In this document: in pieces, positions 5,294 through 33,670 of the stretch
Numbering within the stretch: position 1 is the first letter of the stretch
Layout of the letters: the number at the start of each line of letters is the position of its first letter
Assembly (NCBI RefSeq): GCF_016428855.1
Contig: NZ_JAELTN010000014.1
Span: 1 to 64,000 of the forward strand
Length of the DNA: 64,000 bases
DNA from: Pedobacter sp. ASV28
Lineage (GTDB): Bacteria; Bacteroidota; Bacteroidia; Sphingobacteriales; Sphingobacteriaceae
Direction of reading: 5' to 3'
Position numbers and translations under genes: made by a program
The notes under the pieces: model-generated
What the model was told of the DNA's origin: nothing
Databases searched by the model: none
The model's input: only the letters and a program-made list of their open reading frames with translations

Positions 5294-8200
5294 ATGAACG
5301 CCAAAATCTATTTTATCTTGAAGAAGTTTTTTAAAATCCTTGCCATAAGCGTCATATCGCTTCTAGCTTTATTGTTCATCATCCCCTACCTCATTCCACA
5401 AACCATCAACAAACAGATTACCCAAACCATTAACCAGAACATTAAAGGTAAAGTAAGCTTTAAAGGTACGGGACTGTCTTTTTTCAGCCATTTTCCCTCT
5501 CTTACCCTAAATCTGGAAGAGTTTCTATTAAAAGGTTCTGCGCCTTTTAAAAATGACACCTTGATCTACACCAAACAATTATCCCTTGGAATTAATCTAC
5601 TTTCGTTATTTAGTAATCAGATCAAAGTTGATGAATTTTACCTGGACAATGCCAAGATCAATATCCTTTCCGATGAACAGGGACATGCCAACTATAATGT
5701 GTACGATAGTAAACCGAATGGTAAACAAGCCAGCGACACTAGCAACACGGCCATAAAAATAGAAGGTATATATATTAAAAATAGCGATTTGGTATATAAT
5801 GATAAATCAATACCCATGCAGATTAATGCAAAAGGAGTCAATTATTCGGGCACTGGAGATCTGAGCCATGCCATTTTTGATTTAAAATCAAAGCTATCCA
5901 TTGCCGATGCCGATATCTATTACAACAACATACCTTACCTATTAAACAAAAAACTAAATGCCAAACTGATTACCAAAGTTAATACCAACTCTTTAGATCT
6001 TGTATTTGATGAAAATGATCTTAAAATCAATTCTCTACCTATCCGTTTTGTGGGCCGTTTTTCTTTCTTGAAAGATGGTTACGATATGGATTTTAAGACC
6101 GACGCCAAAGAAACCGATCTGCACAATATCTTTACTGCGCTCCCACCTGAAATTGCGGAAAGGTTAGAACGTACCAACATTAAAGGCTATGCAGAGATTG
6201 ACGCCTCATTGGTTGGAAAGTACATTGCCCAAAGTAACACCATGCCTACCTTAAACTTTAACATGAAGGTAAGAAAGGGCGAAATTACGAATCCAAATGC
6301 ACCAGAATCGATTAAAAATCTTTTCCTAAACCTACAAACAAGACTTCCAAGTTTGAATCCAGATAGCCTGTATCTTAACATGGATAGCCTGTTCTTCAAC
6401 ATTGGCAACGATTATCTATCCTCAGTCACCAAAATACAGGGCCTAAAAGAACCTGAAATCTATACCAAAACCCGTTCAAATATCGATTTAGAAAAATGGG
6501 CCAAAGTAGTCAACTTAGATAGTCTAGATCTTAAGGGACGATTGTTTATGGCCATTCATGCCGATGGTAAATACAGCAAAAAAGTGGTTAAAAGTGGCAT
6601 AAGAAAAATAGATACTGTAATTGCTACCGTACCAAAATTCGAGGCCAAAATCAAACTTACCGATGGTTATTTCAAATATGCCCCATTGCCTTCTCCCATC
6701 GACAAAATTGCTTTTGATTTTACGGGTTCAAACACCAACGGCGATTACAAAAACACTAAACTGGAAATCATCAATATTGACATAAATGCCATGTCAAACT
6801 ATATTAAAGGTTATTTTAAGCTACAAACTGTTAACAATATTACGGTAGACCTGGGATTAAAAACAGCTATCAACTTTTCGGAGATCAAAAACTTCTATCC
6901 GATCAAAGGCCTGGTGTTAAATGGTAAACTTTCTGTAGACCTAAATAGCAAAGGCTCATATGATAAAACCAAGAAATTATTTCCAGTTACCCATACCCTG
7001 ATCAAACTGGATCATGGTTATATCAAGACCAGTCATTTTAGCGAAGCTTTAGAAAAAATTGATATTGATGCTGCGCTTACCAATACTGATGGCACACTGA
7101 AAGGCACTTTATTAAACGTAAAACCCATTTCATTTGAAATGGCGGGACAACCATTCATGCTGAAAGCCAATGTGAGTAATCTTGAAAATGTATCTTATCA
7201 TATTAGTTCGAAAGGCACCTTGGACATTGGCAAGCTCTATAAAGTCTTTGCTATCCCTGGCTATCAGGTTAATGGTCTCATCTACACTAATGTTTCGTTT
7301 AAAGGTTTACAAAGTGATGCTATGGCAGGTAGGTATGGTAGACTACAGAATAACGGCATGATGAACATCAAGGAATTGAATGTACGGACAGATATGTTCC
7401 CTCATCCATTTCTAATCAGGAATGGAAAGTTCTCTTTTACTTCTTCTGCCATGAAATTTGAAGAGTTCAATGCTTCTTATGGCGGGTCTGACTTTAAATT
7501 GAATGGAAATTTAGGGAATTATATCAATTATGTCTTTGATGAAAAGGCCAAACTTACCGGAAGTTTTATGCTCCACAGCAACAAGATCGTTGCCGATGAA
7601 TTTATGGCCTACGCTGGCGAGACCAGTACGCCTACAAACAGCACCAGCAAAGGCGTTATCCTTATCCCGAACAACCTCAACATCAGTTTCAGTGCCAATG
7701 CCAACAATGTTGCTTATAATGGACTGGACCTGAAGAATGCCAAAGGAACGCTTACCGTAAACAACGGCCAATTGACCTTATCACAAACTGGATTTGACGT
7801 GGTTGGTGCTAAAGTAGCTATGGATGCCACCTACAAGAGTTTAAGCCCTACCTCGGCCAATTTCGATTTCAAGCTAAGCGCCAAAGAGTTTGATATTGCC
7901 AGGGCCTACAAAGAGATTAAATTATTTAGGGAAATGGCTACTTCTGCCGCCAAGATTAAAGGTATTGTAGGCTTAGATTACCAATTAGCAGGCCGCTTGA
8001 ATGAAGAAATGTATCCTGTTTTCCCCTCTATTAAAGGAGGCGGCACATTAACGCTAAAAGAAGTCAAGCTAGCAGGCTTTAAAATGATGAATGCGGTAAG
8101 CAAGGCTACAGACAGGGATACCTTAACCAATCCCAACCTTAAGGATGTGGTAGTTAAAACCACCATTAAAAACAACATCATTACCATTGAGCGTACCAAA

Positions 8201-24923: not shown

Positions 24924-25508
24924 ATGTTTAATAAGAAGAAAAAGGAAGAAGAACCTATTGTAGAAAACAATACGGCTGAAGAAGCTTTACAAAACACGGT
25001 CACAGAAGACACTGAAAAAGAAGCGCCAACTGCTACAGCAGAAACTGGTACCGAATTAAGTGTAGAAGAAAAATTGCAACAAGAAATTGCTGCTTTAAAT
25101 GACAAATATCTACGCTTGTTCGCTGAGTTTGACAATTTTAAACGCCGTACACAAAAAGAACGTATAGAACTTTTACAAACTGCCGGAAAAGATGTAGTGG
25201 TTTCTCTTTTACCTGTTTTAGACGATTTTGAACGTGCAATAAAAGCGACAGAAAAAGCGACAGAAATTGAAGCTGTTCGAGAAGGTGTAGTGTTGGTTCA
25301 ATCTAAGCTGAAAAGCATTCTAAGCCAAAAAGGATTAAAAGAGATTGAAAGTCTAAATACACCTTTCGATACCGATCTACATGAAGCCATTACCCAAATT
25401 CCTTCCCCTACCGAAGAGCAAAAAGGAAAGGTAATTGACGAGCTAGAAAAAGGATATACGCTAAATGACAAAGTGGTTCGTTTTGCGAAAGTAGTTGTAG
25501 GGGCATAA
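24924..25508 (+). CDS. grpE: GrpE nucleotide-exchange factor
   Basis: A 194-residue co-chaperone that releases ADP from DnaK. A disordered acidic N-terminus (to about residue 50) is followed by a long coiled coil (LNDKYLRLFAEFDNFKRRTQKER) and the beta-domain with FDTDLHEAITQIPSPTEEQKGKVIDELEKGYTL. This agrees with the family in order and length. It is followed by dnaJ, 147 nt downstream, the usual Bacteroidota pairing. DnaK is not in the window. Confidence 0.97.
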   Translation: MFNKKKKEEEPIVENNTAEEALQNTVTEDTEKEAPTATAETGTELSVEEKLQQEIAALNDKYLRLFAEFDNFKRRTQKERIELLQTAGKDVVVSLLPVLDDFERAIKATEKATEIEAVREGVVLVQSKLKSILSQKGLKEIESLNTPFDTDLHEAITQIPSPTEEQKGKVIDELEKGYTLNDKVVRFAKVVVGA

Positions 25509-25655
25509 AAATTTAAGTGTTACAAGGTTGAAAAGTTGAAACATCCTAAATATCAACATGATAACCTTAAAGACAAATAAAAACTGAATGTTTGTTATTG
25601 AACACTTAACCTTACAAGGTTTCTTCAATCTTCAAGCATTTCAACGTTTAAAAAA

Positions 25656-26822
25656 ATGAGCAAAAGAGATTATTATGACATACTAGGGGTTGCTAAAAAT
25701 GCATCAGCTGAGGAAATCAAAAAGGCCTATCGTAAGTTAGCTATCAAATACCACCCTGACAAAAATCCTGACGACAAATCAGCTGAAGATAAGTTTAAAG
25801 AAGCAGCAGAGGCTTATGAGGTATTGAGCAGCCCGGAAAAGAAACAACGCTACGACCAATTTGGTCATGCTGGTGTAGGTGGAGCCGCAGGTGGTGGATA
25901 TGGCGGGGGCGGTATGAACATGGAAGATATCTTCAGTCAGTTCGGAGATATTTTTGGCGGCGGTGGCGGCAGCCCATTCGACAGCTTTTTTGGCGGAGGT
26001 CAATCTCGTGGTGGAGGTGGTCGTAGAGTGGCCAAAGGTTCCAATCTACGTATCAAGGTTAAACTAACGCTCGAAGAAATTGCCAATGGTGCGGAGAAAA
26101 AAATCAAGGTAAACAAGCAGGTAAGCTGTAAAACCTGTGATGGAACGGGAGCAAAAGACAAATCGTCAGTAAGCACTTGTAAAACCTGTGGCGGTAGCGG
26201 TGCCGTACGTAGGGTAACCAATACCATTTTAGGCCAAATGCAGACTACCGCAACCTGTCCTACCTGTCATGGTAGCGGACAACAGATTACGGCCAAATGT
26301 AATGTTTGCCATGGTGACGGAACGGTGCGTGGTGAAGAAACCATTTCAATCAACATCCCGGCAGGTGTAAGCGAAGGCATGCAATTGAGCATGGCAGGAA
26401 AAGGTAACGCAGCGCCTAATGGTGGTATTCCAGGTGATCTGATTATCCTGATTGAAGAAACTCCCCACGAAACGTTAAAACGTGAGGGAAATAATGTAGT
26501 TTACGACCTTCACGTAAGCATTCCTGAGGCAGCTTTGGGCGCAAGTGTCGAAGTACCTACCATTGATGGCAAGGCCAAGATCAAGATCGAACCAGGTACA
26601 CAGAGTGGCAAATTGCTACGCCTAAAAGGCAAAGGCATCCCAGAAGTAAATTCTTACCATAGGGGTGATCAGATTATACACGTAAACATCTGGACACCAA
26701 AAGCGTTGAGTAGTGAAGAAAGGTCATTATTAGAAAAACTTAAAGAGTCGCCTAATTTTAAGCCACAACCTAGTAAAAATGACAAGAGCTTCTTTGATAA
26801 GATGAAAGAATATTTCGAATAA
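25656..26822 (+). CDS. dnaJ: Chaperone DnaJ
   Basis: A 388-residue type I Hsp40. The J domain occupies residues 1-70 with the HPD tripeptide ([10 protein letters not shown]). A Gly/Phe-rich linker follows (about 80-125), including runs of GG and the DNA-coding tract at 25870-25990. Four zinc-binding CxxCxGxG-type motifs are [24 protein letters not shown] and CNVCHGDG. The C-terminal substrate-binding domain is complete. It delivers unfolded clients to DnaK and stimulates its ATPase. Confidence 0.98.
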
Positions 26823-27080: not shown

Positions 27081-27827
27081 TTACAACCTACCTTCTTTAA
27101 TCAACCTAAAAAAATCATCTCTATAGGTCTCCCCTATAGGCAGAGACTGCTCTCCAATAAATACAGAATTACCATCGATCATTTTAATATGCTCCGTAGA
27201 AACAATGTACGATCGATGTATCCTATAAAATGGCGGTTGGGGTAGCTGCTCTTCAAATTCCCTTAAAGTTTGATAAGTAATAATTCTTTGGGTCGCGGTA
27301 TAAATAGATACATAATTCTTCAGCCCCTCTATATATAGAATTTCATTGTAGTTCACCTTGATGAATTTATTTTTAGTATCACCTTTAATGAACATAAAGT
27401 CGTTGGGCATAGGCACATTAGCTATGATTTCTTCGCTTTCTGGCAAAACCGATGCATGCTGTACACCACCCAACAATAATTGTTGTGCCTTTGATGCCGC
27501 TTTATAAAAGCGCTCATAAGAAATAGGTTTAAGCAGATAATCCACTACATCCAGATCAAACCCCTCCAACGCATACTCGGTATAAGCTGTTGTCAAAATT
27601 ACTTTGCACTTTCCTCCACAAATTTTCAAAAATTGTATCCCAGTCAATTCGGGCATCTGTATATCTAAGAACACCAGGTCTACAGCTCCTTGTTGTACCA
27701 AATTTAAAGCTTCGAAGGCATTGGTCGTAGTACCCACAAGTTCCAAAAAAGGTGTTTTCTTGATATAATTTGAAATAATTTCCGAAGCATAGGCTTCATC
27801 GTCAACGGCAAGACAGCGGATCATCAT
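27081..27827 (-). CDS. LytTR family response regulator
   Basis: A 248-residue two-component regulator. The receiver domain (residues 1-115) has the acidic pair Asp9-Asp10, the phospho-acceptor Asp55 in LVFLDIQMPELTG, and the conserved lysine in YLLKPI. The C-terminal LytTR DNA-binding domain (about 140-245) shows FMFIKGDTKNKFIKVNYNEILYIEG and FYRIHRSYIV. It is the likely partner of the LytS-type kinase at 29073, although a DUF5694 gene sits between them, which is unusual. LytTR proteins bind paired direct repeats upstream of targets. Confidence 0.95.
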   Translation of the reverse strand: MMIRCLAVDDEAYASEIISNYIKKTPFLELVGTTTNAFEALNLVQQGAVDLVFLDIQMPELTGIQFLKICGGKCKVILTTAYTEYALEGFDLDVVDYLLKPISYERFYKAASKAQQLLLGGVQHASVLPESEEIIANVPMPNDFMFIKGDTKNKFIKVNYNEILYIEGLKNYVSIYTATQRIITYQTLREFEEQLPQPPFYRIHRSYIVSTEHIKMIDGNSVFIGEQSLPIGETYRDDFFRLIKEGRL

Positions 27828-28006
27828 CTGATAAGATTGTTTAAATTCTGGTATCTATTTGTGAAATATATTCATTAAAATACAATTTTATTGGAATAAT
27901 CTTCCATCTTAACTAGAATAACAGGATTTACATAGAAGATTTGTGCTAAATTTTCTTAAACATAAAAGTATTCAACTTCATAGCTTCAGCAGGTACTAGA
28001 CAAGTG

Positions 28007-28948
28007 TCAATCTGCCACCAACCTGATTACCAAATCAGGGTATTGCTTCTGCAACTCATTTTTTAAGCCAATCACATGGCCAGCTCCAACCACCACTACG
28101 CTTTTCGTATAATTATGCGCTGTAAGCTGGCTCACAATATTTTGAGCCATACGCTCATTTCTTTCATCCCAATACCTAGTAGCCAGTGTACAAGCCTCAT
28201 TCTGATGAAGAACATACCTAAATGAGTTAAGTTGATGCATTCTTTGTAAGGAAGCTAGCTTATTGGTATGTTTTCCTAAGCGGCCTAAAAGGGCAGGAAG
28301 AATGGACCGATTATAATCTTGCTTATTGAGCTTGTTGTTCAACATGTTATCGCCATTACTGGCGCCAACTTTTAAACAGCCCCTCCATGCCAAATGATAT
28401 TCCTTATTGGTCTGTTGATCGTCCATATTAAATAGCGTACGGATTCCTAAAAGAAGGGCGAGCTTATAGCTAAGGTCTTCATCTTCATTCCTCAACGGCT
28501 TTTTGGAACCCTTTATTCCGTATTTTTTAACATAGCGATAGAATTCATAATTGGCGTAGTTGCGCATATAGGCAAATGAAGTAATCAATGTATCCAATTC
28601 CTGTTGACTGAGCGTAGCCGTTTCCTTTCTCAATAAGACTTCCAATATCTTAGGGCTAACTTGATGGTACTTTTTTAACGAATCGGATAACTTATAGAAT
28701 TGCTTATATGCATCAGACCATCCATCCTTAAGGTATGTCCAACTTATTTCATCATTGGGCATTGGACGTTCTATATAGATAGCTTCTGGCCGATATTTCA
28801 AAGCGACCTTAAGTAAAGGCTTATAGCTATGCTTTACGATTTTGGGCACCACATGCATGGTCCCTATAATCAGCACTTCTTTTTTAAGATTTTGGGCAAA
28901 AGCAGTTGCCGTAGTCAAAAAGACTATGAAGAATAATGACACTCTCAT
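28007..28948 (-). CDS. DUF5694 exported protein (TraB/Tiki-like), copy 1
   Basis: A 313-residue protein with a signal peptide (residues 1-19). The motifs are GTMH at 29-32, AIYIERP at about 60, and GAGH at 288-291. This is the GxxH / E / GAGH pattern of the TraB/PrgY, Tiki and EreA-like superfamily, which I recognise here as DUF5694. Members of the superfamily are known or suspected metal-dependent hydrolases, such as Wnt-cleaving Tiki and pheromone-blocking PrgY. It lies between the genes for a LytTR regulator and a LytS kinase, and a paralogue (30314) is on the other side of the kinase. The substrate is unknown. Confidence 0.75.
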   Translation of the reverse strand: MRVSLFFIVFLTTATAFAQNLKKEVLIIGTMHVVPKIVKHSYKPLLKVALKYRPEAIYIERPMPNDEISWTYLKDGWSDAYKQFYKLSDSLKKYHQVSPKILEVLLRKETATLSQQELDTLITSFAYMRNYANYEFYRYVKKYGIKGSKKPLRNEDEDLSYKLALLLGIRTLFNMDDQQTNKEYHLAWRGCLKVGASNGDNMLNNKLNKQDYNRSILPALLGRLGKHTNKLASLQRMHQLNSFRYVLHQNEACTLATRYWDERNERMAQNIVSQLTAHNYTKSVVVVGAGHVIGLKNELQKQYPDLVIRLVAD

Positions 28949-29072
28949 AAGTTATATTATTTTATGTTTTTATCGTTAAAGGGAAGCGTGATTTTCTGTT
29001 TCTATATCCATATCAATCTCCATTGTTTTCATTTTATTTTGACAACATATAGGACGGATTAGCAAATGGTTG

Positions 29073-30098
29073 TTACTTTAATTTTTTGGGCAAATGGATC
29101 ATTAACGAAGTTTTATAAGTATTTCCATTATTAGAAATCAGAAGCTCATGCTCACCAGGATAGATCAGATCCAATCTCCTGTGAATATTGATCAAGCCTA
29201 TACCACTGGAATGGTCTTTCTGCGCATGACTGATCTTATTGCTCACTTCAAAATTTAATCGCTGTCCCTGCACTTTTAAACTGATTCTTATCGGATGTTT
29301 TTCATCATTAATCACGCCATGCTTAAAGGCATTTTCTACGAAAGGAATTAACACTAATGCCGCTATTTCCTGCTGTTCATCTATGCCGTCCACTTTAAAA
29401 TCCACATAAAAATTAGGTTCAAACCGCATTTTAAATAGAGCAATGTAATTTTTAAGGTAATCTATCTCTTTGTTAAGCTTCACATTTCCATCGACCCCTT
29501 CTGTTAAAGTATAACGCATCAGATCAGACAAACGGATCACCGCATTGGCCAAGCGATCGGATACCGGAATAGCCAAAGAATAGATATAATTTAAGGTATT
29601 ATACAAAAAATGTGGGTTGATCTGCGACTTTAAAAAAGCCAACTCTGCTTTTACTACTTCGTCTTTCAGTTTTCTGTTGACCTGCTCATTTTTAAAATTT
29701 TGCTGCATGCTATATACCGCAGCAGCGATAACAATATATGAGATACCAAAATAGATATTATCGGTGATGTAATAACTGATCGTAGTCCCTTCGAAATAAT
29801 TATGAAAACCGAATAGCTTCAGATAGAGCACTTCCTCTATCAGATACCTTAATAAGATAAAAGAAGCCATAGCCACTATAACACCTCCTAGCAGCTGAGC
29901 TATCTTGCCCCTTTTTAAATATTGGGGATAGACCCACAAATAGCAGATATAAAACTCTACCAATTGTATAAAAGACATTGAAATATCAAAAGCTGCCGAA
30001 CTAAAACTTACCCCTTTTATAAGATAGCCACCATAACGATAAGTCAATATGGCTAGCCAACAGGCAATATGTATAAGTATTGTACGATTTCTATTCAT
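29073..30098 (-). CDS. LytS-type sensor histidine kinase
   Basis: A 341-residue membrane kinase of the His_kinase (PF06580) type. About four N-terminal transmembrane helices (residues 8-28, 40-57, 69-90, 112-130) replace a classical sensor domain. The phospho-acceptor histidine is in LKSQINPHFLYNTLNYIYSL at about residue 163. The ATPase part has LIPFVENAFKHGV and SGIGLINIHRRL. The gene is read in the same direction as the DUF5694 and LytTR genes after it. A -7-like TAGTTTTA lies 4 nt upstream of its ATG. The signal it senses is not evident. Confidence 0.95.
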   Translation of the reverse strand: MNRNRTILIHIACWLAILTYRYGGYLIKGVSFSSAAFDISMSFIQLVEFYICYLWVYPQYLKRGKIAQLLGGVIVAMASFILLRYLIEEVLYLKLFGFHNYFEGTTISYYITDNIYFGISYIVIAAAVYSMQQNFKNEQVNRKLKDEVVKAELAFLKSQINPHFLYNTLNYIYSLAIPVSDRLANAVIRLSDLMRYTLTEGVDGNVKLNKEIDYLKNYIALFKMRFEPNFYVDFKVDGIDEQQEIAALVLIPFVENAFKHGVINDEKHPIRISLKVQGQRLNFEVSNKISHAQKDHSSGIGLINIHRRLDLIYPGEHELLISNNGNTYKTSLMIHLPKKLK

Positions 30099-30158
30099 GC
30101 CATAAAACTATGAAAAGCTTTTCCAACCCTATAGTTTTTAATGCCAATCCTGCCGAAA

Positions 30159-30223
30159 ATTATCCCAACCCCCCATTTCTGGGGACGAACCCATTTTTAG
30201 CCTCCCAAAACGATTGGGATAAT
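30159..30223. promoter_or_regulatory. Palindrome between the divergent kinase and DUF5694 genes
   Basis: Perfect 10-bp arms ATTATCCCAA (30159-30168) and TTGGGATAAT (30214-30223) enclose a centre with two direct repeats CCCATTTCT (30172-30180) and CCCATTTTT (30190-30198). It lies in the 215-bp region between the divergent genes and could be a control site. The direct repeats are 18 bp apart, somewhat less than usual for LytTR sites. Confidence 0.45.
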
Positions 30224-30313
30224 ATTTTAGGGGCTTCGGATTATTTAATTTCCATAGTGGAGCACATTGCCAACCTTTGAGTAACAAATAAAGAACAATC
30301 AATTTAAACACAC

Positions 30314-31189
30314 ATGAAAAAGACCTATCCACTACTCGCCATATTAACAATATCTCACTTACTTTTAACAACTTATGCCATTGCCCAAGGCATAAAAAAG
30401 AAACAGCTATTGCTTATCGGTACTTTCCATTTCAACAACCCCAATGCTGATGCGGTAAAAACAATAGATTTTGATGTGACTACACCTACTGTTCAAAAAG
30501 AGCTAGAGCAAATTACAGATCGAATTAAGGAATTTGCCCCTCATCAAATATTTGTAGAATGGTCACATGATAAACAGTCACAATTAGACAGCCTCTATCA
30601 TTTATACCAACAAGGCCAATACGAAGCTTATATTAACCAAAAATATAAAAGCCAGGAAAAACGTATGTCATACCTAAGAGACGAGGTCTCGCAATTGGCA
30701 TTTAGGGCCGCCCACAAAGCAGGTTTGCCACAAGTTAAAGCCATCGACTATTTTCTACCCATGCCTTATGACACTGTAATGAATGCCATTAAAGTAGCCA
30801 AACAAACAGAGGTAATGAACGAGATCAACTCTTTTATTTCCACCATGGAAAAAGAGGCCAACAAAAAGAGGAAAACCATGTCCCTTACCAATATTCTGCT
30901 CGACCTCAATACCCCAATTTCCAGACAACAAAACAGAAGTATTTATTTAACCACACTTAATAGGGCTGGTAGTATTGACAATTTTGCAGGAGCATTTTCA
31001 GTTGCGGCATGGTACCAGAGAAACCTCTATATGTATGCCCTTATGCAAAAACAAATGCAGGCTAAAGATCAAAAAGCAGTGCTAATTCTTGGCGCTGGAC
31101 ATATTGCCATGATTAAAAAATTCATAGAAGATGACGGCAGATATGAGGTTGTTGAGCTTAAAGATGTATTGAATAAAACAAGCAAATAA
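30314..31189 (+). CDS. DUF5694 exported protein (TraB/Tiki-like), copy 2
   Basis: A 291-residue paralogue of the 28007 protein. A signal peptide (residues 1-25, ending IAQG) is followed by GTFH at 36-39, QIFVEWSHD with the conserved glutamate at about 78, and GAGH at 260-263. The two copies differ widely outside these motifs, so they are not a recent duplication. It is followed after 66 nt by an outer-membrane barrel gene in the same direction and probably shares its transcript. A hydrolytic role in the periplasm or at the cell surface is inferred only from the superfamily. Confidence 0.75.
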   Translation: MKKTYPLLAILTISHLLLTTYAIAQGIKKKQLLLIGTFHFNNPNADAVKTIDFDVTTPTVQKELEQITDRIKEFAPHQIFVEWSHDKQSQLDSLYHLYQQGQYEAYINQKYKSQEKRMSYLRDEVSQLAFRAAHKAGLPQVKAIDYFLPMPYDTVMNAIKVAKQTEVMNEINSFISTMEKEANKKRKTMSLTNILLDLNTPISRQQNRSIYLTTLNRAGSIDNFAGAFSVAAWYQRNLYMYALMQKQMQAKDQKAVLILGAGHIAMIKKFIEDDGRYEVVELKDVLNKTSK

Positions 31190-31255
31190 CTTGAATTCCC
31201 CAAGCAACGTTCCACACCAGAAAACCGTCTTTTTATTTATCAAACAAACTTTTAT

Positions 31256-33670
31256 ATGAAAACCTATTTATTGAGATCTATTTTTATACTTGCCTTATTA
31301 TCGTGTTGCAAATGGGCAAATGCACAAACCTTTAAACTGAACGGAAAAATTATTGACCAACATACAAAACAACCTTTAGACTATGTTTCTATTGCCTTGA
31401 TACAATTACCAGACTCTAGCACTACCGCTACACAAGTAAGCAATGAGCAAGGTAACTATGAATTCAAAGTGGTAAAAGCAGGGAAATACCTGATCAAAGC
31501 CTTAATGGTGGGTTATGACAAGGCCTCTACTGCTGTCTTTGAAGTGAAGGCAGATCTTTCCCTCCCCGTGCTGGCGCTCGTTAATCGTACCCAGCACCTT
31601 AAGGAAGTAAACATCATCTCCAAAATGCCGGTCATCGACCAAAAAGCAGATCGCACCATTGTCAATGTTGAACAGATGAATACTACTGGAGATAATGCAC
31701 TGGAGGTATTGAGCCAAGCACCAGGCATTACATTAGACAAAGATGATAACATCATACTAAAAGGTAAAAAGGGCATTAATGTAATGATTGATGGAAAAAT
31801 GAGCTATATGAGTGGTGCCGAACTTACTACTTATCTCAAGTCACTTCCTGGATCGGTACTCAGTAAAATTGAGCTGATCTCCAATCCTCCCGCCTCTTTT
31901 GATGCTGCTGGTACAGGTGGCTTTATCAACATCAAACTAAAACGCAATAAAATGCAGGGCATGAATGGAAATGCCAATATTGGTGGCGGATATGGCAAAT
32001 ATGAAAAAGTATACGGCGGGACCAACCTGAACTACAATACAGGTAAAGTAAGCACTTATGTTCGTTTAAATGCAGGTAGATATAATTCATTCAACCGGCT
32101 TACATTAGAAAGAACAATAGGTAATGAACAATATAACCAGAGCAATTATTGGCACCCTATTACCCATAGCTTAAACTATTCTACGGGAGCAGATTATTTT
32201 ATCAATAATGAAAATACCTTGGGCTTTATGTTTAAAGGCTTTAATTCGCCAATGGAAACCGATGTAACCAGCACTTCGCCCAATTATAATGCCCAGGGCA
32301 TTAAAATGGGATCTGTAAACATGCATAACCCACAAGATAACCACAGTGGCAACCATGCTTTTAATATAAATTATCGCTACAGAATTGACAGTACAGGTAA
32401 GGAATTGGGTTTTGATGCCGATTACGTATTCTATAAAACCAATAAAGATGAGGACTTTACCAACACTTATTACGATGCTCAAGACCAATTAAAGAATGGC
32501 CCCATCTATCTTCGTAATAAGGGATATAGTAACATTACCATTTATGCCCTAAAATTAGATTACACCTACCCTTTTAACAAAAATCTTAAATTAGAAACTG
32601 GCTGGAAAAGCAGTTGGATACAGGCTAAAAGCGATGTACAGTTTGATTCCCTCAAAACAGCAGGATGGATTAACGATCCAAGACGTACCAACCTGTTCAA
32701 TTATAATGAAAACATCAATGCAGCCTACCTTTCCCTTAACCAAAGTACTAAACAATTAGATATAAAAGTTGGGGCCAGGATAGAACAAACACTAGGCGAT
32801 GGCCATTCTTCGGGCACTAATACTATCATTGAACGAAAATATTGGAAGATTTTCCCTAACGCATCCATTTTATATAAAGCTACTGCCAACCATCAATTTA
32901 CCCTCTCCTATAGAAAAAGTATCAATCGTCCTTCATACAGCAGTTTAAATCCCTTTGCCTTCTATACCGATCCGTATACTGCCCTACAGGGAAATCCAAT
33001 GTTACAGGCTTCTTATGCCAATAATTTCGAATTCAATTACACCCTAAAAAACTTTAGGCTCCTCACGGTGAGCTATGCCACAACCAATGGGGCTGTTGCT
33101 GAAGTGATCTATCAGAATAACGTTTCCAAGGAAAGCATCAGCAGGCCAGAAAACCTCAATAAAGAAACGAACCTATACATGGCTACCGGTAGTCCTTTCG
33201 ATATTAAAAAATGGTGGAATATCAATACTGAAATAGCTGTTTCTTATAATAAAACTTCATCTCCTATCCAAGGTACTGGTTTTAATGCTTCACAGTGGAG
33301 CTGGTCGGCCAGTACCACCAATACCTTTACCCTACCCAAAGATTATTCGTTAAATTTTTCTGCTTATTATTATTCCCCTTCAGTGAATGGCTTATTCCGA
33401 AATTTAGAAAATTATGCCATAAATGTAGGCGCAAAAAAGACCTTTTGGCATAAAAATGCCACCTTAGCCTTAAGGGTAAATGACATTTTCGCGACCAGCA
33501 TGTTCAGGGCCACCTTGCGCTATAACAATATCAATACCTATTGGCAAAACGAATGGGAAAATAGAAAGGTAAACCTAAACCTTACCTATAAATTTGGTAA
33601 CATGAAGCTAAAAACTGCACGTAACCGAAGAACCAGTACGGGAGAAGAAGAACGAAGAGTAGGACAGTAA
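31256..33670 (+). CDS. Outer-membrane beta-barrel protein (TonB-receptor-like)
   Basis: An 804-residue exported protein (signal peptide 1-23). Residues of about 25-110 form a CarboxypepD_reg-like domain (LNGKIIDQHTKQPLDYVSIAL). A plug-like region follows (GDNALEVLSQAPGITLDKDD, VMIDGKMSYMSG, SFDAAGTGGFINIKLKR). The rest is a long barrel of alternating strands with many Asn, Tyr and Ser residues, typical of the OMP_b-brl_3 family. No TonB box was picked out. It lies directly behind a DUF5694 gene, and the two may act on the same substrate. Confidence 0.9.
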   Translation: MKTYLLRSIFILALLSCCKWANAQTFKLNGKIIDQHTKQPLDYVSIALIQLPDSSTTATQVSNEQGNYEFKVVKAGKYLIKALMVGYDKASTAVFEVKADLSLPVLALVNRTQHLKEVNIISKMPVIDQKADRTIVNVEQMNTTGDNALEVLSQAPGITLDKDDNIILKGKKGINVMIDGKMSYMSGAELTTYLKSLPGSVLSKIELISNPPASFDAAGTGGFINIKLKRNKMQGMNGNANIGGGYGKYEKVYGGTNLNYNTGKVSTYVRLNAGRYNSFNRLTLERTIGNEQYNQSNYWHPITHSLNYSTGADYFINNENTLGFMFKGFNSPMETDVTSTSPNYNAQGIKMGSVNMHNPQDNHSGNHAFNINYRYRIDSTGKELGFDADYVFYKTNKDEDFTNTYYDAQDQLKNGPIYLRNKGYSNITIYALKLDYTYPFNKNLKLETGWKSSWIQAKSDVQFDSLKTAGWINDPRRTNLFNYNENINAAYLSLNQSTKQLDIKVGARIEQTLGDGHSSGTNTIIERKYWKIFPNASILYKATANHQFTLSYRKSINRPSYSSLNPFAFYTDPYTALQGNPMLQASYANNFEFNYTLKNFRLLTVSYATTNGAVAEVIYQNNVSKESISRPENLNKETNLYMATGSPFDIKKWWNINTEIAVSYNKTSSPIQGTGFNASQWSWSASTTNTFTLPKDYSLNFSAYYYSPSVNGLFRNLENYAINVGAKKTFWHKNATLALRVNDIFATSMFRATLRYNNINTYWQNEWENRKVNLNLTYKFGNMKLKTARNRRTSTGEEERRVGQ

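Follow-up and report, generated by a model that had tools for sequence, protein, structure and literature searches.

A window of 64,000 nucleotides (positions 1 to 64,000 of contig NZ_JAELTN010000014.1, the whole stretch of DNA that was analysed) from the 5.28 Mb genome of Pedobacter sp. ASV28 contains a gene cluster that is probably a self-regulated LytS/LytTR two-component module. Its exported outputs would be centred on putative hydrolases of the Tiki/TraB superfamily (DUF5694) and an outer-membrane barrel, and in relatives the outputs appear to extend to an S41 peptidase or to a serine hydrolase of the beta-lactamase type. On the plus strand of the window, the module reads regulator (-), D1 (-), kinase (-), control region, D2 (+) and barrel (+):

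27081 to 27827, minus strand: LytTR-type response regulator (PF00072, 65.2 bits; PF04397, 79 bits)
28007 to 28948, minus strand: D1, TraB/DUF5694-type protein (TraB_PrgY_gumN, 37.0 bits, cut-off 26.8; DUF5694, 35.0 bits, cut-off 27.5)
29073 to 30098, minus strand: LytS-type histidine kinase (PF06580, 88.7 bits)
30131 to 30172, minus strand: operator toward the kinase operon, direct repeats with a 21-bp period (E-value in the own genome 1.5e-5)
30210 to 30251, plus strand: operator toward D2 and the barrel, direct repeats with a 21-bp period (E-value in the own genome 7.4e-7)
30314 to 31189, plus strand: D2, predicted exported DUF5694 (Tiki/TraB superfamily) putative hydrolase (PF18950, 160.7 bits)
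31256 to 33670, plus strand: outer-membrane barrel, TonB-receptor-like (PF14905 (OMP_b-brl_3), 357.5 bits; PF00593, 44.7 bits, cut-off 27; PF13715, 42.3 bits)

These Pfam matches bear out the initial annotation, which had placed a kinase, a regulator, two DUF5694/TraB proteins and a barrel at this locus. A PF06580 kinase encoded together with a receiver/LytTR regulator is the composition of a LytS/LytTR system, with D1 intervening between the two genes in the window. The N-terminal half of the kinase is hydrophobic by hydropathy, and a large periplasmic domain was not predicted. The barrel matches the receptor-barrel profiles of TonB-dependent receptors, and its N-terminal domain is carboxypeptidase-regulatory-like. 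D1, D2 and the barrel all appear to be exported, as judged by eye from their signal-peptide-like N-terminal segments. Because the gaps flanking D1 are only 124 and 179 bp long, D1 probably lies on the kinase transcript.

The control circuit, comprising the regulator, its operators and its targets, is the part of the reading that we hold with high confidence. The kinase and the D2-barrel pair do share a control region, which had been described as palindromic; more precisely, it consists of two opposed (head-to-head) direct-repeat pairs with a 21-bp period. In the kinase orientation the regulator's presumed operator reads GTTGGGATAA-N11-GTTGGGATAA, that is, two 10-bp direct repeats separated by an 11-bp spacer. 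This is the form of a LytTR-type target site, which PMC4847170 and PMC11347149 define as paired repeats of about 9-11 bp with a spacer of 11-13 bp; the canonical site has two 9-bp repeats 10-13 bp apart (PMC11347149), and the E. coli YpdB site is GGCATTTCAT-N11-GGCATTTCAT with an 11-bp spacer (PMC4847170). A weight matrix built from 47 non-redundant sites, with the window excluded, scored the two operators at 38.8 bits (30131-30172) and 40.4 bits (30210-30251), whereas five mononucleotide-shuffled versions of the window reached 12.1 at best. Elsewhere in the 64 kb no position scored above 8. D1 lacks an operator of its own, and in the whole genome the only two strong sites are those at the module, the next best having an E-value of 0.127.

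We compared 69 regions (that of the window, 67 genus loci and the out-group locus L147), 16 of which have no gene divergent from the kinase. Of these regions, 65 carry a 21-bp-period pair on the kinase side and 49 carry one on the target side; L147 has neither. In 60 of 68 genus regions, exactly 40 nt separate the end of the kinase-side pair from the start of the kinase gene, and in the window the second repeat of the kinase-facing operator ends 40 nt upstream of that start. The intergenic region is mostly 197-215 bp long, no matter whether D2 or the barrel lies across it, and the shorter exceptions stem partly from start-codon calls. In one locus (L094) the kinase has a 442-bp upstream gap with no divergent gene and the target-side repeat pair is still there, as if the barrel had been lost. 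A second LytS-type kinase of the own genome (locus L310, 1400-2657; contig C156 near 6518-6591) is accompanied by a divergent, exported-looking protein of 344 residues without a Pfam match, and its control region, inspected by eye, shows two opposed 21-bp-period repeat pairs with another word (TTTCGTATAATTT / TTSGTATAAAA). Judging from this locus, the head-to-head design may be general for such kinases in this genome.

We then scanned 145 genus genomes with a profile of 46 sites, in which the kinase-side site of L135 was not included. A kinase orthologue (at least 49% identity) is present in 68 of these genomes, the own genome included, and the best site fell below an E-value of 1e-4 in 67 of the 68, as opposed to none of the 77 kinase-negative genomes; the kinase-positive exception (G223) stands at 3.0e-4 and the best kinase-negative genome (G177) at 1.2e-4. 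Because the profile had been trained on sites from the kinase loci, the informative part of this result lies in the sites unlinked to a kinase. We assembled 47 such loci, consisting of 46 listed sites and the weaker L036 (25.8 bits, homologue at 36% identity); 40 were newly collected, and the other seven (L020, L021, L024, L028, L036, L037 and L038) came from earlier DUF5694 or D1 searches, so their gene was known before the site. The first gene after the site was a TraB/DUF5694-like gene of 356-374 residues (hereafter TraB365) or its like in 40 loci and an S41 peptidase gene in six, and the remaining locus ran into a contig end (L212 of genome G152). The gene of this last locus was resolved as TraB365, and hence all 47 sites precede a TraB/DUF5694-like or S41 gene.

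Close TraB365 homologues (at least 44% identity, the contig-split G152 included) occur in 47 genomes, 46 of them kinase-positive, i.e. in 46 of 68 kinase-positive versus 1 of 77 other genomes (Fisher p 9e-20, a value that overstates independence because the genomes are related). The operator is present at 40 unlinked and four linked TraB365 copies. Distant TraB365-like proteins (27-31% identity) are not tied to the kinase: 10 of the 68 genomes with a kinase orthologue have one, as do 9 of the 77 without. L018 and L025, the two such loci that were examined, lack the operator.

In the kinase-positive genus loci, whose regulator orthologues are 58-81% identical, the gene divergent from the kinase varies: among the 67 loci besides the window it is a barrel in 41, D2 in six, TraB365 in four and absent in 16; these 16 have a GNAT gene running in the same direction as the kinase. 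All 16 genomes lacking a divergent target carry TraB365, 15 of them with the operator. D2 is followed by the barrel, as in the window, in two of the six D2 loci and by an S41 peptidase in one. Counted over the 68 genomes, a Tiki-like gene lies under the operator in 48, and any hydrolase lies under the operator or in the cassette in 54. The S41 gene directly follows the Tiki-like gene in L114 (3721-4923) and L125 (1917-2942), the two S41 proteins being of different types. The position of a DUF5694 gene between regulator and kinase, one of the features first annotated, is true of the window but is not a shared layout, since the regulator adjoins the kinase in 58 of 67 genus loci; a serine hydrolase of about 400 residues lies between them in eight (the one scanned with Pfam belongs to the beta-lactamase family, PF00144), and one locus meets a contig end. 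D1 occupies this slot only in the ASV28 genome. Among 145 genus and 300 order genomes a search for close relatives of D1 came up empty, with only weak partial matches in four, which rules D1 out as a conserved part. The proposed hydrolase pair is therefore not supported as a conserved unit: there is usually one Tiki-like gene, which is sometimes unlinked.

S41 and beta-lactamase-type folds also serve envelope upkeep, and their presence among the outputs raises a different explanation, in which no specific external ligand is involved: the multi-pass kinase would respond to a disturbed membrane or envelope, and the targets of the hydrolases and the barrel would lie in the cell's envelope itself or among misfolded exported material. 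The hydrophobic N-terminal half of the kinase, for which no large periplasmic domain is predicted, and the adjacency of the window locus to grpE-dnaJ are in line with it. However, not one of the 47 unlinked operator sites has a classical envelope-stress gene in first position, the own genome has only two strong sites, and the module is not housekeeping because 77 of 145 congeners lack the kinase orthologue. We consider envelope maintenance unlikely. The grpE-dnaJ genes lie at 24924-26822 of the window, and the module has the same neighbour in L070 and L078 and in L147 of another genus.

As to the enzymes themselves, proteins of the D1 and D2 type are likely to be catalytically competent exported Tiki-type enzymes. 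D1 falls into the TIKI/TraB group through the TraB_PrgY_gumN profile and D2 through DUF5694, D2 reaching 21.2 bits against TraB_PrgY_gumN (under the cut-off of 26.8) and 160.7 bits against DUF5694. Both carry the GxxH/E/GxGH signature noticed at the outset, and we found a second conserved Glu besides. In an alignment of 94 proteins that includes D1, the residues H39, E82, E124 and H263 (D2 numbering) are invariant in 94/94, R236 and N237 are conserved in 97% and 96%, respectively, and in nine proteins the Gly of the first GxxH motif is missing. A study of RRSP describes a catalytic 2His/2Glu set common to other TIKI enzymes (PMC6254334), to which the residues conserved in D1 and D2 would correspond when matched by motif and order. 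As the same study gives RRSP as metal-independent and Tiki as metal-dependent, a metal site cannot be assumed for DUF5694. The structural model of D2 had a predicted local distance difference test (pLDDT) score of 75.9, and that of D1 a score of 35.6. Structural comparison of the D2 model returned HopBA1 and ChaN (both Z 6.7), EreC (5.7), RRSP (5.2) and BcR135 (4.5) among unrelated entries, and a phmmer search against PDB sequences gave nothing meaningful. The top entry, above those of the TIKI fold, was 8b6h_DQ (Z 8.9), which is a complex IV subunit from Tetrahymena; it is possible, going by the model, that this is a TIKI-like mitochondrial subunit.

The superfamily also contains PrgY, which invites the idea that the Tiki-like enzyme destroys a peptide signal detected by the kinase. 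D1 lies above the cut-off for TraB_PrgY_gumN, and LytTR regulators are often found in peptide quorum sensing (PMC8895600). In the five intergenic gaps of the window locus, however, only short open reading frames were present and no pheromone candidate stood out, the conservation of these frames being unscored. Moreover, the kinase is of the PF06580 type and not of the AgrC type, which we take to be distinct from it. Signal quenching of this kind is quite improbable in our view.

Outside the genus, DUF5694 is present in 64 of 395 phylum genomes, and we studied 60 loci, leaving out ten further places with mostly weak or fragmentary matches. A kinase and a regulator adjoin DUF5694 in 17 of the 60, four of them with a barrel. 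By our family codes, eleven of the linked loci belong to f4 (eight with D2-like proteins plus L260, L262 and L274), five to f3 (L291, L295, L297, L298 and L302) and one to f7 (L301). The barrel is in the cassette of L291, L295, L297 and L298, with PF14905 confirmed for L291 and L297; L302 has a same-strand arrangement and a broken DUF5694 gene. Two more linked loci are L033 of Flavobacterium foetidum, where a D2 orthologue is again divergent from the kinase, and L147, from another genus of the window's family and one of 13 family or genus loci examined (L136-L148). Tandem DUF5694 genes stand by the kinase in L250, L260, L262 and L291, the copies in L260/L262 and L291 coming from distant clades of the tree. 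The anticipated co-occurrence thus extends well beyond close strains, to 17 of 60 phylum loci and to L033.

The alternative that unrelated genes are neighbours by coincidence could draw on the variability of the barrel, of D2 and of D1 from one genome to another. Against it stand the operators common to linked and unlinked genes, the co-occurrence of the genes and their recurrence in several families. Taken together, the operators, the unlinked sites, the adjacency across the phylum and the co-occurrence lead us to reject both chance and a synteny confined to close strains; we give next to no probability to a coincidental neighbourhood. That the genes form one linked system, as was proposed for the window, is upheld by the shared control region, the operators and the co-occurrence.

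On the tree of the 94 proteins, which was built quickly and carries long-branch warnings, above all for the very long branch of D1, the distribution of linked or operator-bearing versus unlinked proteins takes nine changes (seven forced by starred branches), compared with 30 in shuffles. As read from this tree, kinase linkage is gained or lost repeatedly, yet clustered, because of these 9 changes against 30. A kinase profile run on 521 open reading frames from 55 loci without adjacency gave no match. In 17 intergenic regions outside Pedobacter (L298 being left out for its 6-bp gap after the start-codon call), the best mean repeat lag was 21 (7.47 versus 6.54 in shuffles that roughly preserve dinucleotides; 0/400 as high), and in a subset of nine regions 3/400 shuffles were as high at the 21-bp lag. 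For several of these regions, however, the top-scoring repeat consists largely of A and T and could have arisen by chance.

According to PMC10197871, the kinase or the LytTR gene of F. johnsoniae was mutated in each of five coevolved lines. A link of the module to antibiotic tolerance through these genes is not supported, as base 46 of the regulator is mismatched: it is G in the PMC10197871 regulator and A or C in nine Flavobacterium-type orthologues with D2-like partners (L033, L248, L250, L252, L254, L256, L258, L265 and L271). The more distant linked locus L274 does have G and C at the two positions compared.

The presence of a barrel in the cassette also suggested a nutrient circuit, in which a peptide or ester from outside would be split by the hydrolases and the product taken up through the barrel, with the kinase responding either to the substrate or to the product. 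The TonB-receptor-like barrel would suit such a circuit, as would the S41 peptidase gene next to the Tiki-like one in L114 and L125. There is a precedent in BtsS/BtsR: BtsS, a LytS-type kinase, responds to pyruvate and controls the transporter BtsT (PMC10653868). However, no SusD-like or other catabolic gene was recognised around the cassette in a Pfam scan of nine window proteins; directly beside the barrel a SusD-like lipoprotein is absent, the scanned neighbours being D2, a DUF72 protein and two proteins without a match. Furthermore, we saw no barrel in L033 or in any of the eight f4 loci that have a D2-like protein, and the cassette lacks one in 24 of 67 genus loci (16 without a divergent gene, four with the TraB-like gene, and four of the six with D2). 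We regard a nutrient circuit as improbable.

Several observations weigh against the regulated hydrolase module that we favour. In the genus-wide scan, the model had been trained on both the kinase-side and the target-side sites of kinase loci, which makes the recovery of these sites in part a foregone result, and the unlinked sites number at least 46, the listed matches reaching down to an E-value of about 1.6e-5. Among the unlinked loci, the S41 call of L207 depends on an open reading frame of 110 residues at 33% identity. Two genomes (G190 and G209) have close TraB-like genes without an operator among the sites listed, and G191 has a close TraB-like gene but no kinase. No operator-linked or cassette hydrolase was seen in 14 of the 68 kinase-positive genomes, all of which have a divergent barrel, and the barrel may for this reason be the older output. 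Across the phylum, 43 of 60 DUF5694 loci have no adjacent kinase, ruling out DUF5694 as a generally kinase-linked family, and no common operator word was found outside the genus, where only the 21-bp period stands out. Finally, the superfamily active site that the initial annotation invoked is complete in its residues (94/94), but the D2 model reaches TIKI entries at Z 4.4-6.7, mixed with histidine phosphatases (VIA), a Foldseek search with it gave no match below an E-value of 0.001, and the D1 model is unusable.

If the module works as we propose, the kinase would detect a membrane-proximal cue, and the phosphorylated regulator would bind both operators and raise expression of kinase-D1-regulator and D2-barrel, the direction of activation being assumed from the usual mode of LytTR regulators. 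In the most speculative steps, the hydrolases would split a peptide-like or ester compound at the envelope that is the cue or its maker, closing a negative feedback loop, and the barrel would bind or move the compound. That the hydrolases cleave the inducing compound is the reading we lean towards, but a tentative one, short of an even chance. Because three unrelated exported hydrolase folds share one regulatory socket, the comparison suggests that the point of the circuit is hydrolysis of something outside the inner membrane. A bolder version, which we regard as rather unlikely, is a Bacteroidota two-component lineage dedicated to Tiki-fold enzymes, in which a peptide in the envelope or outside the cell is read by the kinase and the enzyme that destroys this peptide is induced in response, with interchangeable folds (Tiki, S41 and beta-lactamase type) in one socket. 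If true, bacteria would have here a counterpart to the way in which Tiki or PrgY inactivates a signal.

The module resembles several known systems in part. E. coli LytS/LytTR systems have a small regulon with a membrane-protein target, as this module does. Its kinase and regulator are of the same type as those of YpdA/YpdB and BtsS/BtsR, and it shares with them the 10-bp direct repeats with an 11-bp spacer (PMC4847170), whereas its putative targets comprise Tiki-type proteins and S41 peptidases that appear to be exported, along with a barrel of the outer membrane, and its operator word differs. With the TIKI/TraB/PrgY/GumN group it shares the 2His/2Glu set (PMC6254334) and the Pfam TraB match of D1; unlike that group, the putative enzymes here belong to the DUF5694 branch, are predicted to be exported, and stand beside and under a two-component system. 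PrgY is a member of the same superfamily, and its gene sits near signalling genes on pheromone plasmids. In contrast, no pheromone gene was recognised at the module, the host phylum differs, and we know of no such kinase system on PrgY plasmids. The SusCD-type nutrient loci of Bacteroidota likewise have a TonB-receptor-like barrel beside a regulator, but the module has no SusD-like gene, its barrel is of the OMP_b-brl_3 family, and its hydrolase folds are unrelated.

In Pfam, DUF5694 is named a 'family of unknown function'. We found no publication naming it, and no paper linking TraB, PrgY, Tiki or GumN with LytTR in Bacteroidetes among titles and abstract starts, with few subscription journals covered. 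The parts are of known kinds, while the regulon and the operator are undescribed as far as we have seen. Tying DUF5694 to a defined regulator, operator and regulon makes its function testable: the operator predicts targets, the kinase offers a route to the inducer, and the invariant residues show which catalytic mutants to make. Should the enzyme dispose of the compound that induces it, signal inactivation of the Tiki/PrgY type would be extended to a two-component circuit in several families.

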